Shown here: positions 50,180 through 58,231 of the stretch, piece by piece
Layout: each line of letters starts with the position of its first letter
Numbering within the stretch: position 1 is the stretch's first letter
Assembly: GCA_017461765.1 (NCBI GenBank)
Contig: JAFTXO010000038.1
Location: 1-58,231, forward strand
DNA from: Clostridia bacterium
GTDB lineage: Bacteria; Bacillota; Clostridia; Oscillospirales; CAG-272
Reading direction: 5' to 3'
DNA length: 58,231 nt
Program-made: the position numbers and the translations under genes
The notes under the pieces: generated by a model
Database searches by the model: none
What the model was told of the DNA's origin: nothing
The model's input: the letters and a program-made list of their open reading frames with translations, nothing else

Positions 50180-51067
50180 TTACTCCTCTCTTATCTTGTT
50201 ACCGCAAAGCTTGACCAAAACCTCCTCAAGGTCCTCGTTGTCGAAAAATTCAAATTGCACTATGCGTGTATTTCCGCTTGCTTTTATTTTGAAGCGTCTG
50301 CCGGTGAGAGACGTTGCTCTTCTCTCCAAGTCGTCGATGTAGTCAACGACAAAATCGCTCTCCTCCTCAAGCACCTCATCCTTTTTGTCAAAGAGCTTGT
50401 TGAGCTTTTTAACAAGAAGCTCCGTGTCGCGAACGCTGAGGGAGCGAATAAGGATTTTTTGCGCCGTATCAACGATGTCATCCTTGTTTTTAAGACCGAG
50501 AAGCGCTCTTGCATGACCTGCCGAGATATCGCCCGTCTTTAACATTTCAAGCACCTCATCGGGAAGATCAAGAAGACGCATCGTGTTCGCGATAGCACTT
50601 CTGCTCTTGCCCACCTGAGCGGAAACCTCCTCTTGCGTAAGATCAAACTCGCGCATGAGTGAACGGTACGCCTGGGCTTCCTCGTAGGGGTTAAGATCCT
50701 CTCTTTGAATGTTCTCTATTATAGCGAGCTGGGCAGCCTTAAGCTCGTCAGCTTGCATTACGATCGCGGGGATCTCGGTGAGATTTGCAAGCTTTGATGC
50801 TCTCCAACGGCGCTCACCTGCTATTATTTGGTAAAAACCGCCTGATACGGGTCGAACTACGATAGGCTGGATAAGTCCGTGCTGTGAAATAGACTCGGCG
50901 AGCTGACCGAGAAGCTCAGGATCGAAATATTTACGTGGCTGGTTTGATTTCGGTTCAATTTGCGAGATCTTGATCGTCTGAACACCCTCGTTTTTTGTTG
51001 ACTCCTCAACAAAAGAGTAGTTGTCGGCGAAAATGGATTCAAGTCCCTTTCCAAGTGCTTTTTTCAT
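50180..51067 (-). CDS. parB: Chromosome partitioning protein ParB (Spo0J)
   Basis: This 295-residue CTPase clamp starts MKKALGKGLESIF and has QPRKYF, GERRWRA and ENIQREDLNP CTP-binding motifs. The parS-reading helix-turn-helix is TQEEVSAQVGKSRSAIANTM. A C-terminal dimer domain ends the protein. ATG 51067 is preferred as GGAGG lies 8 bases upstream; a TTG at 51082 would overlap that site. It lies 4 bases after parA. Its binding sites are in the region upstream of parA. Confidence 0.96.
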   Translation of the reverse strand: MKKALGKGLESIFADNYSFVEESTKNEGVQTIKISQIEPKSNQPRKYFDPELLGQLAESISQHGLIQPIVVRPVSGGFYQIIAGERRWRASKLANLTEIPAIVMQADELKAAQLAIIENIQREDLNPYEEAQAYRSLMREFDLTQEEVSAQVGKSRSAIANTMRLLDLPDEVLEMLKTGDISAGHARALLGLKNKDDIVDTAQKILIRSLSVRDTELLVKKLNKLFDKKDEVLEEESDFVVDYIDDLERRATSLTGRRFKIKASGNTRIVQFEFFDNEDLEEVLVKLCGNKIREE

Positions 51068-51071
51068 CTTT

Positions 51072-51848
51072 TTATCCTCCAAAAGTTCTTTCTATGATCT
51101 CCTTGGCAACGTCCTGGTATTCAAGGCTTGCGCGGGAGTATCTTGCGTAGTAGTAGATCGGTTTGCCGAAGCTTGGCGCTTCGGAAAGAGCGACACAGCG
51201 TGATATTTTAGTTTTAAAGAGCTGTGGCTCGTAGTATTTTTGAAGCTCCGCATATACCGATGATGCGAGCTTTAACCGTGGCTGGTACATAGTGACGAGT
51301 ATTCCTAAGATATGAAGGCGTCTGTTGTACTTCTCTTTTATCTTTTTTATCGTAAACATGAGCTGGGAAAGTCCCTCAAGCGCAAAGAATTCACATTGAA
51401 TAGGGATAATTATTCCGTTGCTCGCCGATAAAGCATTTATAGTCGTCATACCGAGCGTGGGCGGACAGTCAATAAGTATGTAGTCGAAAAGATCTTCCTC
51501 TTTTAAAAGATCGAGCTGGTTTTTCAGAAAGTAAGCTCTGTTATCCTGAGATGTAAGCTCAAAATCTGCGGCAGCGAGGTCTACGTTTGAGCAAACTACC
51601 GATAGATTATCGTATTTTGTCTTGACTATCGCTTCTTTTATGGAGCAAGCGCCGATAATAACGTCGTAAGATGTCTTAAAAGCGGAGTTTTTTTGAATTC
51701 CTACACCGCTCGTGGCACTTCCCTGCGGATCAAGGTCTATTAGAAGCACCTTTTTTCGCAAAACTGCAAGCATAGTCGCAATATTCACTGCCGAGGTGGT
51801 CTTGCCGACACCGCCCTTCTGATTAGCGAATGATATTATATAAGACAT
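51072..51848 (-). CDS. parA: Chromosome partitioning ATPase ParA (Soj)
   Basis: This 258-residue ATPase has the deviant Walker A KGGVGKTTSA, Walker A' LLIDLDPQGSATSG and Walker B YILIDCPPTLG. It uses the nucleoid as a track for ParB-bound origins and also modulates DnaA in related organisms. Short N-terminus without an extra HTH, as for chromosomal Soj proteins. Confidence 0.97.
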   Translation of the reverse strand: MSYIISFANQKGGVGKTTSAVNIATMLAVLRKKVLLIDLDPQGSATSGVGIQKNSAFKTSYDVIIGACSIKEAIVKTKYDNLSVVCSNVDLAAADFELTSQDNRAYFLKNQLDLLKEEDLFDYILIDCPPTLGMTTINALSASNGIIIPIQCEFFALEGLSQLMFTIKKIKEKYNRRLHILGILVTMYQPRLKLASSVYAELQKYYEPQLFKTKISRCVALSEAPSFGKPIYYYARYSRASLEYQDVAKEIIERTFGG

Positions 51849-54782: not shown

Positions 54783-55613
54783 TTACTGTTGTTTTACGGG
54801 AATGAGGATTGTTATCTCGGTGAAATCATCGTTTTCGATACGGCGCGATTTTACGTTTACGCCGCTTGTTTTCATCGAATTGATTGCGCGCTCGATGCTT
54901 GAGTAAAATGCGCGCACGCTCTTTTCGGGCATTATTTTAGCCGATTGAACGATTTGCTCGTCTTCCTGATTCTCGATACTCACATCCTTTGAAATTGCGC
55001 GTTCTATGAGCTCCTCGGAGCGTGTGACGTTAAGACCCTCATCAATGATCTTATCGAGAATACGCGCTCTTTGCTCCTCATCGTGTATTTTAAGGAGCGC
55101 TCTTGCGTGACGCTCTGTGAGAGAATTTTCAAGTATCCTCTCTCTCGTTTCCGAGTCCAGTCTTAAAAGACGCAGCTTGTTCGCTATGTAGGACTGACTG
55201 TTTGAAAGCCTTTTAGCCAGCTGCTCCTGCGTTATGCCGTAGGTGTCGATAAGACTCTCAAACGCAAGCGCTTCCTCGAACATATTAAGATCCTCTCTCA
55301 AAAGATTTTCGATGATCGCGATCTGTGCGCTTTTTTCCTCTGTCATCTGAGCAATAACACACGGAACACTCTCAAGCCCGATTTCCTTTGCGGCTCGCAA
55401 ACGGCGTTCTCCCGATACAAGCTCGTAGCTGTCGTTCACTCTGCGAACGACAAGCGGCTGAATTATTCCGTACTGTCGAATACTGTCAGCAAGCTTGAAA
55501 ATGGCCTCATCCGAGAATATCTTTCTCGGCTGATTGGGATTTGCGCTTATTTGCGACGGAGGTATCATAACTATTCTGTCGGGTGCGCTTGTTTTTTGAT
55601 AGTAGATGTTCAT
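54783..55613 (-). CDS. noc: Nucleoid occlusion protein Noc (ParB paralogue)
   Basis: This 276-residue ParB-family protein has IPPSQISANPNQPRKIFSDE, GERRLRAAKEIG, IENLLREDLNMFEEALAF and a helix-turn-helix TQEQLAKRLSNSQSYIANKL. The C-terminus SGVNVKSRRIENDDFTEITI resembles B. subtilis Noc rather than Spo0J. The N-terminus (MNIYYQKTSAPD) lacks the amphipathic membrane helix of Bacillus Noc, so membrane recruitment may differ. It could also be a second Spo0J. A candidate Noc-type site, ATTTCCCGACGGAAT, lies upstream at 55674-55688. Confidence 0.82.
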   Translation of the reverse strand: MNIYYQKTSAPDRIVMIPPSQISANPNQPRKIFSDEAIFKLADSIRQYGIIQPLVVRRVNDSYELVSGERRLRAAKEIGLESVPCVIAQMTEEKSAQIAIIENLLREDLNMFEEALAFESLIDTYGITQEQLAKRLSNSQSYIANKLRLLRLDSETRERILENSLTERHARALLKIHDEEQRARILDKIIDEGLNVTRSEELIERAISKDVSIENQEDEQIVQSAKIMPEKSVRAFYSSIERAINSMKTSGVNVKSRRIENDDFTEITILIPVKQQ

Positions 55614-55852: not shown

Positions 55853-56509
55853 ATGATTTTTGAAAAGATAAAACGGTTCAGAGAAAGTCCCGAAAGGACG
55901 AGAATTACGCTCACGGTCGAAAATAAAATATCGGTCGACAAGCAAAAAAACGGTGTATATCAGGCTAAGATGAACGACGGAAAATATGAATTTTCTCCGC
56001 TTGACGATCTTGGAGCGAGCGCAGGCGCAGGCGGACTCGGAACTGAGGTCAATGCAGACGGAAATACGTTCGTAAACGGACTCAGGGTGGCAACTGATTG
56101 CACGATACATCAAAGAGCGCCGGAAACGAGCGTAAACTCCTTCTTAGCGAAGAATAAGATCTATTCTCTTGACGAGGTGGAGACATCCGATGAGCTTGGC
56201 GTATACGATAGATTTGCAAGAGAAAACGGCGAGGGGGAGAGTGCTGAAAATGAGACAGAGAAAACCGTCGACGGAGCAGGTGTCGCCTCTTTTTGTGATG
56301 CTGAAAACTGTTCTTGTGGCGATGAAGATAGCAATAGCGATCCTTTCAGCGATAAGTGCTCTTGCAAAAGCATTGAAGAAATTTCGTTCAATGCGCCGAA
56401 AAAGTGTGTTTTTAAGAAGAAACATAGCATCTCTTTCCTACTTTGCGATGTTGCTTTCGCTGGGTGCGCTCTTATTGGCTGTAAACTTATAAAAGCAATA
56501 TTCAAATGA
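55853..56509 (+). CDS. Unknown protein with C-terminal membrane segment
   Basis: This 218-residue protein starts MIFEKIKRFRESPERTRITL behind GAGAGGTGAC. The middle is acidic and Ser/Asn-rich with a Cys-rich stretch (FCDAENCSCGDED, DKCSCKS), followed by a hydrophobic end (about 193-213) that could be a membrane anchor. No family recognised. It is the first rightward gene beyond the candidate origin and diverges from noc. The composition is low-complexity, so confidence is moderate. Confidence 0.55.
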   Translation: MIFEKIKRFRESPERTRITLTVENKISVDKQKNGVYQAKMNDGKYEFSPLDDLGASAGAGGLGTEVNADGNTFVNGLRVATDCTIHQRAPETSVNSFLAKNKIYSLDEVETSDELGVYDRFARENGEGESAENETEKTVDGAGVASFCDAENCSCGDEDSNSDPFSDKCSCKSIEEISFNAPKKCVFKKKHSISFLLCDVAFAGCALIGCKLIKAIFK

Positions 56510-56549
56510 TTGGCAATTATGCGTTGCAAGTTAAAAAGGCTGTCCCGTT

Positions 56550-56900
56550 ACTTCGGCGAAGTGCAGTATAATTTAACACTCACTCGGGACAGTGGCGGCG
56601 GAGTCGCCGCGGACTAATGTTGGTTTCGTGCAGTATGAATTTAATGCTTACACACAACAGTAAAAGCCTCCCTTGTGTAAAGGGAGCCACAGTTAGCCTT
56701 CTCTAGCAGAGAAGGGGGACCACGGCAGTGGTGGATGAGTGGAGCATCCGAGTGTGAGCCATCAAATGAGAAAACCAAATAAATTTATTTATCTATTTTT
56801 TAATTAAGCATATTCAACCAATGATCTACTCATCCGCTTCGTTCCTCAGCACCTTCCCTGCTAGGGAAGGCATATTAGGCTACGCTTAAATAAAAAATAT
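56550..56900. repeat. Intergenic mosaic of dispersed repeats
   Basis: About 350 bases with GTGCAGTATAATTTAACACT-type linkers, a small GGCGGAGTCGCCGC hairpin, a CCCTTGTGTAAAGGGAG element and AGCCTTCTCTAGCAGAGAAG. These share parts with the regions at 12720-13445 and 125-205. No gene seen. Confidence 0.6.
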
Positions 56901-56906
56901 TTTTTC

Positions 56907-56938
56907 GGTGTCATCTCGCAAGGGGTGACACCTTATTT
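56907..56938 (+). terminator. Isolated GGTGTCA hairpin (same as terminator of unit 1)
   Basis: GGTGTCA-tctcgcaagggg-TGACACC followed by a broken T-run. It is identical to the hairpin that ends the first hairpin-RNA unit at 57169, so it may be the scar of a lost unit. Confidence 0.7.
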
Positions 56939-56980
56939 TTTACTGCAAAAAATAAAATTGAATTTTATCTCTCTTTTCTA

Positions 56981-57009
56981 TTGAAAAAAATAGAAAGAAG
57001 TGGTACAAT
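56981..57009 (+). promoter_or_regulatory. Promoter of hairpin-RNA unit 1
   Basis: TTGAAA (56981-56986), 17 bases, TACAAT (57004-57009) with an extended -10 TG at 57001-57002. Predicted start about 57016. Confidence 0.8.
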
Positions 57010-57015
57010 ATATGT

Positions 57016-57199
57016 GTCACATTAACAGAATAGCAAAAAACATCCTTATAGGCGTATTATGCCTTCTTAAAGGGAATACTATATCTTTTGGTAGATATAC
57101 TTATCGCAAGATATTCCCTTTAACAAGGATGTTCTGTTAGTGTGACAACTATGCGAGAGGTATTCTACGGTGTCATCTCGCAAGGGGTGACACCTTTTT
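57016..57199 (+). ncRNA. Putative hairpin RNA, unit 1
   Basis: The predicted transcript begins at the first base of a 131-base hairpin. The outer stem of 15 pairs is 57016-57030 with 57132-57146 (one U-G). The middle stem CATCCTT/AAGGATG is 57041-57047 with 57125-57131. The inner stem of 12 perfect pairs is 57067-57078 with 57112-57123, capped by TATATCT/AGATATA. A 5' bulge TAGCAAAAAA and a small AGGC/GCCT hairpin interrupt the left arm. A GGTGTCA/TGACACC terminator follows (57169-57199). There is no ORF. Same architecture as units 2 and 3, but unrelated in sequence. Confidence 0.7.
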
Positions 57200-57260
57200 G
57201 CTTTTTAAGCCAAGCTAACAGGCTCATACAATATTAAAACGATACTTATATCGTTGTATA

Positions 57261-57289
57261 TTGACTTTTTTATTCAAATATGGTATAAT
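57261..57289 (+). promoter_or_regulatory. Promoter of hairpin-RNA unit 2
   Basis: TTGACT (57261-57266), 17 bases, TATAAT (57284-57289) with extended TG. Predicted start about 57296. Confidence 0.88.
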
Positions 57290-57295
57290 ATACTT

Positions 57296-57447
57296 GCCAC
57301 GCAAACTAAATATTTTTTCTCAGTAATGGGAAAATACTTTGGCAAAAAGTGTTTTCTCTCTTTTTCTCATACCATTACTGAGAGTTTGTGTGGCAACAAT
57401 CAAGGGAGATGCACTTTTTCGGTGCGTTCCTTGTGGGCGCACTTTTT
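57296..57447 (+). ncRNA. Putative hairpin RNA, unit 2
   Basis: The predicted start is the first base of a 99-base hairpin. The outer stem of 12 pairs is 57296-57307 with 57383-57394 (one G-U). The middle stem of 11 pairs is CTCAGTAATGG (57319-57329) with 57372-57382. The inner stem GAAAATACTT/AAGTGTTTTC (57330-57339 with 57347-57356) has loop TGGCAAA. A pyrimidine-rich bulge TCTCTTTTTCTCATA lies on the right arm. After it, GCAC/GTGC and GTGCG/CGCAC are alternative hairpins, the second followed by TTTTT (57422-57447). Confidence 0.78.
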
Positions 57448-57506
57448 GTTTTTAAGCCAAGCTAACAGGCTCATACGGTTTAAAACGATACTTATTTCGT
57501 TGTATA

Positions 57507-57535
57507 TTGACTTTTTTATTCAAATATGGTATAAT
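57507..57535 (+). promoter_or_regulatory. Promoter of hairpin-RNA unit 3
   Basis: TTGACT (57507-57512), 17 bases, TATAAT (57530-57535) with extended TG. Predicted start about 57542. Nearly identical to the unit 2 promoter. Confidence 0.88.
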
Positions 57536-57541
57536 ATTCTC

Positions 57542-57699
57542 GCCATACAAATTGCATATCATTTAACTGATGAAGGGAAAATACTTAGGTAAAAAGTGTT
57601 TTCTCTCTTTACTCATACCTTCATCGGTGAGTGCATTTGTGTGGCAACAATTAAGGGGGATGCATTTTTTCGGTGCGTTCCTTGTGGGCGCACTTTTTT
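57542..57699 (+). ncRNA. Putative hairpin RNA, unit 3 (also leader of the next ORF)
   Basis: A paralogue of unit 2 at a 246-base interval. The outer stem GCCATACAAAT pairs with ATTTGTGTGGC. The middle stem ACTGATGAAGG (57566-57576) pairs with 57618-57628 and differs from unit 2 at many positions yet still pairs. The inner stem is unchanged, with loop AGGTAAA. The pyrimidine bulge is kept. The terminator hairpin GTGCG/CGCAC with six T's (57673-57699) ends 18 bases before an ATG, so readthrough would express the ORF at 57718. Confidence 0.78.
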
Positions 57700-57717
57700 A
57701 TTTTAGAGGGGAACATT

Positions 57718-58071
57718 ATGGATCTTTTTACGAACTTTTATGAAAATGAGGAAGAAAAAAGCTATAGACTTCTTTCTTGGGAAATGTATAAGTATATGTA
57801 TGTTAACGAAAAATCTTTGAATTTTGAACAGTTTAAGGTATATAAAGAGCTGGAAGTATTCTTCGTTAATAATTTCCTTATAAAATCGCAAAAATGCGAT
57901 TATTACAAGCATTTAAACATCGTTAATGAGTTTGCGATGTGTGAGCTAGAATCATCTGCACAAACGAACGTTACCGCAAACGAGCTTGAAAGCTATGTAA
58001 AAAAATTTCCCACTCAAAGGGATCTTTTATTCCCGTTTAAACGAATTATGAAAAGAAGAAATGAACTCTAA
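57718..58071 (+). CDS. Small unknown protein downstream of the hairpin-RNA array
   Basis: This 117-residue protein starts MDLFTNFYENEEEKSYRLLS behind GAGGGG. It is rich in Tyr, Phe, Glu and Lys, helical, with no membrane segment, and has a basic end (FKRIMKRRNEL). I recognise no family. Its only visible upstream promoter is that of hairpin unit 3, with a terminator in between, so control by attenuation is possible. Confidence 0.65.
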   Translation: MDLFTNFYENEEEKSYRLLSWEMYKYMYVNEKSLNFEQFKVYKELEVFFVNNFLIKSQKCDYYKHLNIVNEFAMCELESSAQTNVTANELESYVKKFPTQRDLLFPFKRIMKRRNEL

Positions 58072-58139
58072 CAAAAAAGAGGTTGCCGTTAAAGGGTGAT
58101 GTTCTTATCGGAGAATTTGAAAATTACGCTAAGTGCGAG

Positions 58140-58200
58140 CATCGCATTTGACCGGTCAAACGCGCCTCGGGGTTCCCCAAAAATTCGTAGAATTTTAGGG
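58140..58200. repeat. Short hairpins at the window edge
   Basis: TTGACCGGTCAA, GGGGTTCCCC and AAAATTC-gta-GAATTTT follow one another within 60 bases. They are again a run of small dyads like the poly-hairpin arrays elsewhere. No gene is seen in the last 160 bases. Confidence 0.5.
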
Positions 58201-58231
58201 GTTCGCGAGTATGGGCTAAGCCCCCTATTAC

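Follow-up and report, generated by a model that had tools for sequence, protein, structure and literature searches.

The window analysed here, the whole stretch of 58,231 nucleotides (nt) of a Clostridia bacterium contig (JAFTXO010000038.1), carries at positions 56981-57717 three complete tandem units, each with an extended -10 promoter, a long hairpin and an intrinsic-terminator-like hairpin, and the sequence supports their reading as attenuator leaders. The observations are those of sequence, covariation, start geometry, competing helices and gene association. Each unit would start at its own promoter and fold into an evolutionarily kept hairpin, and the leader apparently selects termination or read-through into the gene behind it, whose product is often a surface or secreted protein. 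The initial annotation had proposed a candidate new structured RNA family, a proposal sustained by covarying homologues, retained promoter and start geometry and the lack of any Rfam family at the cut-off. Its tandem array of promoter, hairpin and terminator exists here and elsewhere but is not the essence of the family, many members being single leaders before a gene, and the terminator-like hairpin that it recognized is only half of a terminator/antiterminator switch; the antiterminator, the Y:Z pairing and the downstream gene were overlooked.

Members are of two sizes: a type A hairpin of about 100-115 nt, as in units 2 and 3, and a longer, branched type B. The type A covariance model R1 was used throughout, and type B is undercounted because the searches relied on it. 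R1 gave 55 matches in 48 chosen sources, including unit 1 of the window, which had been left out of model building and was still matched at 57016-57199 (42 bits, E 1.9e-7); units 2 and 3 scored 153.3 and 163.7 bits. In the alignment of the 55 matches, which is fitted to R1 and includes its seeds, 93.2% of cells pair, against 72.7% after shuffling and 36-51% when slid. The covariance-model search of related genomes suggested in the initial annotation thereby returned homologues with covarying stems, 35 of 41 pairs being changed on both sides (433 such cells versus 122 in shuffles). Among 25 type A sequences aligned with MAFFT, P1 was paired in 98.9% of cells, with 5 of 11 pairs changed on both sides, and double-changed cells over the entire structure numbered 98 versus 32 in shuffles. 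In an alignment of 34 type B sequences, 12 of 13 P1 pairs were standard in every row and compensatory changes were numerous; few pairs inside P1 were supported by its automatic consensus. A conserved structured domain with covariation, as in riboswitches, is thus present. Over 66 non-redundant members of the 74 in the class sample, the near-invariant positions included the junction AUA after the P1 5' arm, the loop As, CU in the 3' part of Y, the terminator core and the U-run of Z.

The start geometry is equally constrained. Of 129 members, 118 have a gap of 6 nt between the -10 and P1, ten a gap of 7 nt and one a gap of 10 nt; TG precedes the -10 in 122, and at least five of six -10 positions match in 118, versus 252 of 1290 shuffles. 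Two opposite-strand matches (L230 and L231), which remained in the wider set of 131 members, were excluded from the conservation, start-geometry and gene-position counts and kept in the shuffled control for start geometry. Because the gap is fixed across members, the RNA 5' end is most likely the first base of P1; transcription itself is inferred.

An intrinsic terminator stands before a same-strand gene, and a mutually exclusive antiterminator is available, paired in 87.4% of cells; of its ten pairs, one is open in 19 of 25 sequences. The fold as a whole comprises five strands and four helices, and transcription would begin exactly at P1's first base. The scan for Y:Z pairing took the wrong Y motif for several rows of type B, among them L084, L086, L089, L093 and L140; these were retained in the mean. 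The direction of switching is likewise inferred. The features of the array are as follows.

56907..56932, plus strand: terminator-like hairpin, near-copy of the unit 1 terminator (92% identity), probable relic
56981..57009, plus strand: unit 1 promoter, TTGAAA, 17 nt, extended -10 TACAAT
57016..57146, plus strand: unit 1 hairpin domain, P1 57016-57028 with 57134-57146, Y strand from 57090
57147..57199, plus strand: unit 1 switch region, Z strand, antiterminator option, terminator 57169-57194
57261..57289, plus strand: unit 2 promoter, TTGACT, 17 nt, extended -10 TATAAT
57296..57394, plus strand: unit 2 hairpin, type A, P1 57296-57306 with 57384-57394, Y strand from 57341
57395..57448, plus strand: unit 2 switch region, ACAA linker, Z strand from 57402, terminator 57421-57443
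57507..57535, plus strand: unit 3 promoter, TTGACT, 17 nt, extended -10 TATAAT
57542..57645, plus strand: unit 3 hairpin, type A, P1 57542-57552 with 57635-57645, Y strand from 57588
57646..57699, plus strand: unit 3 switch region, Z strand from 57653, terminator 57672-57694
57718..58071, plus strand: 117-amino-acid (aa) open reading frame (ORF) with Shine-Dalgarno-like AGAGGGG, presumed gene under unit 3

The three promoters with exact 17-base spacing and TG before each -10, the hairpin starts 7 bases after the -10 (57016, 57296 and 57542) and the terminator hairpin of each unit were all found as initially annotated. Units 2 and 3 are repeats, as had been claimed, with a measured spacing of 246-251 nt, and the claim that their stems were rewritten while staying paired also held: the 11-pair middle stem reads CTCAGTAATGG/CCATTACTGAG in unit 2 and ACTGATGAAGG/CCTTCATCGGT in unit 3, and the inner stem is nearly constant. 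Unit 1 carries an extra side hairpin and is therefore closer to the long type B. Predicted energies of terminator, antiterminator and Y:Z pairing were -17.5, -11.0 and -18.6 kcal/mol for unit 1, -10.1, -14.1 and -19.2 kcal/mol for unit 2, and -10.1, -13.3 and -15.9 kcal/mol for unit 3. The hairpins of units 1, 2 and 3 fold at -51.9, -43.2 and -41.9 kcal/mol (z -10.4, -9.2 and -7.5), a value reached by none of 200 shuffles for any unit, and positions 56500-58231 hold 12 promoter-like sites on both strands, versus 5.4 +/- 2.1 in shuffles, the unit promoters being the best three. Chance hairpins were ruled out by this folding of shuffles, the promoter and terminator scan and the compensatory pair changes. 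The relic hairpin at 56907-56932 is probably the remnant of an additional upstream unit. Palindromic repeats at 56530-56890 (e.g. 56668-56686), in the interval that separates the array from the upstream ORF, appear unrelated to the RNA family.

Members are oriented toward genes. An ORF start with a Shine-Dalgarno sequence lies within 103 nt of 48 of 97 testable members; the upstream side gives 4 of 57 and random points 52 of 986. Orientation to genes, when tested, was not random. An ORF followed within 220 nt in 104 of 116 matches examined; 82 of these ORFs, at a median distance of 23 nt, satisfied a less strict filter, and of these 42 had a signal- or membrane-like N-terminus by a heuristic and 13 a lipobox. 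Domains were scanned in 80 of the 82, leaving out L286 and one of two nested ORFs at L269, and at E <= 1e-4 comprised LRR_5 in 10 proteins, Cu_amine_oxidN1 in 5, a zinc ribbon in 3, and SLH, AMP-binding, dockerin, DUF4230 and others in 2 each. The 117-aa ORF of the window had no match in Pfam or NCBIfam. In 12 genomes, LRR_5 was encoded within 2 kb downstream of at least 23 of 91 members and upstream of 0 of 91, counts that are lower bounds from the top-listed LRR matches; these genomes were chosen for known members, several for a following LRR gene, and because of this preselection the upstream side is the fair control. Four members (L204, L207, L240 and L249) lie 101-206 nt before ORFs read as WYL/HTH-type regulators, a long distance for a direct leader that might reflect coincidence.

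The leader is also associated with the gene for a small Cys-rich protein of about 60-70 aa (TGVEL..CLGNGE..ECCCDECDY), which had no match in Pfam or NCBIfam. The source genome, a 1.65 Mb draft in 55 contigs, contains further copies of the RNA by DNA search, with 16 counted by R1 at E <= 0.01. Among 15 terminator motifs read, 10 stand shortly before a Cys-rich ORF of about 67 aa, 3 are upstream tandem members, one is unit 3 of the window, before the ORF at 57718-58071, and one, on contig C47, precedes a long ORF that we take from its sequence to be an ABC exporter; the 225 aa of it tested had no Pfam match. The Cys-rich protein has 13 matches in the source genome (E <= 0.001), two of them interrupted by an in-frame stop. 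Its alignment, searched against genome contigs, returned 134 relatives, of which 80 were retained, all titled metagenome-assembled Clostridia or Oscillospiraceae and many from named ruminant gut sites. A promoter and P1 were located upstream of 75 of the 80 genes by automatic scan, and of 74 (25 type A, 49 type B) once the spurious L147 was removed. Four loci without a leader have merely 24-141 nt before the contig start (L102, L106, L142 and L152), and at L130 the leader is lacking; overall, 74 of 76 testable loci carry it. The Cys-rich family is multicopy both in the source genome (L027-L039) and in relatives (L080-L159). Three members (L061, L062 and L024) precede ORFs read as ABC exporters, beside the Cys-rich proteins at other loci; possibly the small protein is exported.

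At E <= 0.01, R1 matched 33 of 57 genomes of relatives (12 of 29 genera). With 7 candidates per genome scored, it matched 83 of 391 genomes in a class sample (E <= 1e-5; 49 of 221 genera), whereas a phylum sample of 398 genomes, scored in the same way, gave one match (E <= 1e-6), the source genome. Two human-faecal records filed as 'Bacteriophage sp.' (MT835845.1 and MT837627.1) also hold members, and since MT835845.1, judged from its ORFs, looks like a bacterial chromosome, the family is probably found in the human gut too. Fifteen chosen positive genomes had 2 to 17 matches each at E <= 1e-4; four of them contained five same-strand pairs 47-52 nt apart, one further pair was 325 nt apart, and in genome G021 four consecutive members precede a Cys-rich ORF. 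Tandem units without a gene may be a by-product of duplication, decoys or trans-acting RNAs. Rli55/EutX is a riboswitch RNA that titrates an antiterminator protein, and by analogy could offer a sponge model for such units. Very similar units (ACCACACGAATT...) with no ORF directly after them were seen in four species of the genus (L192, L201, L203 and L204); three share an extra stretch past the terminator, and ORFs start 101-150 nt on.

Effectors already described for comparable leaders were considered. An improbable reading, a riboswitch whose ligand is a known second messenger such as, first of all, c-di-GMP, would suit the gene set (LRR, S-layer, lipoproteins, peptidase M23), which resembles surface regulons, and the terminator/antiterminator platform is present. 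Yet GGDEF (E <= 1e-10) was absent from all 29 genomes examined in the genus, including the 22 with the RNA; 4 of 33 RNA-positive relatives had it, these four lying outside the source genus, and no Rfam riboswitch matched at the cut-off. Since GGDEF is missing from these 29 genomes, c-di-GMP is an unlikely effector and was rejected. A mobile or repeat element resembling a MITE, its stems paired merely through inverted-repeat ends, would account for the many copies per genome, the unrelated flanking genes and the several contigs ending at copies, but is very improbable given the compensatory changes, the fixed promoter distance and the non-random orientation to genes, and was rejected on start geometry and orientation. 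Processive antitermination by a NusG paralogue (LoaP-like) loading on the hairpin fits a hairpin at the extreme 5' end directly followed by a terminator, but was rejected as hardly credible, exactly one NusG being found in 52 of 53 genomes with a match and the exception (G041, with three) lacking the RNA. For the attenuator leaders proposed here, a purely kinetic readout is a possible mechanism.

A phage or plasmid origin was also rejected. Phage matches to the window were confined to short stretches, 14% of the query, in eight records of Lactococcus phages; these were taken as AT-rich noise, and the Cys-rich protein matched no phage. One small downstream protein weakly matched an unannotated faecal 'Bacteriophage sp.' scaffold, with no family member in the stretch examined, and no plasmid matched this protein or a tandem pair. 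Of two elements used as phage queries, one matched none and the other the two member-bearing faecal scaffolds mentioned above.

At the Rfam 15 gathering cut-off only tRNA was found in the window and only two tRNAs in 20 member-bearing loci, with weak matches to unrelated families below it, and a known Rfam family was rejected on this basis. In terminator/antiterminator riboswitches and the trp-type attenuator, termination is decided by alternative base pairing, as proposed here, where five strands, four helices and a P1-locked start are distinctive. T-box leaders likewise combine a long leader hairpin with a terminator/antiterminator, but no Rfam T-box matched, and Z varies (GGAG, GGGG, AAGG) with no constant UGGN. 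Like 6S RNA, the family has a long hairpin starting at the promoter; unlike it, there are many copies, often a gene after them and an attenuator, and no Rfam match. The nearest candidate in the published text consulted is the SLH motif, a 5' leader of surface-protein genes with 80 examples, about 60% before SLH-domain genes, partly in Clostridia and also in Synergistaceae and Negativicutes (Stav et al. 2019, PMC6429828). Here SLH occurs in 2 of 80 downstream proteins, and the SLH motif is wider in range than a family whose phylum sample matched the source genome only; the two are thus set apart by gene association and range, not by structure. No description of this RNA was found in the open-access main text covered (PMC11109978, PMC6429828, PMC8632094).

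Elsewhere in the window, one ParA/Soj-like and two ParB/Noc-like ORFs, labels that we presume from their sequences, lie at 50180-51848 and 54783-55613, so the window is probably near the replication origin.

The RNA family is present in about one fifth of the sampled class genomes (83 of 391), with up to 17 matches per genome among those counted and no Rfam match, and would define an unseen Clostridia regulon whose products are surface, secreted and small proteins. Co-transcriptional strand exchange could be tested sharply on its mutually exclusive helices, and the tandem units that lack a gene prompt one to ask whether the RNA acts in trans.
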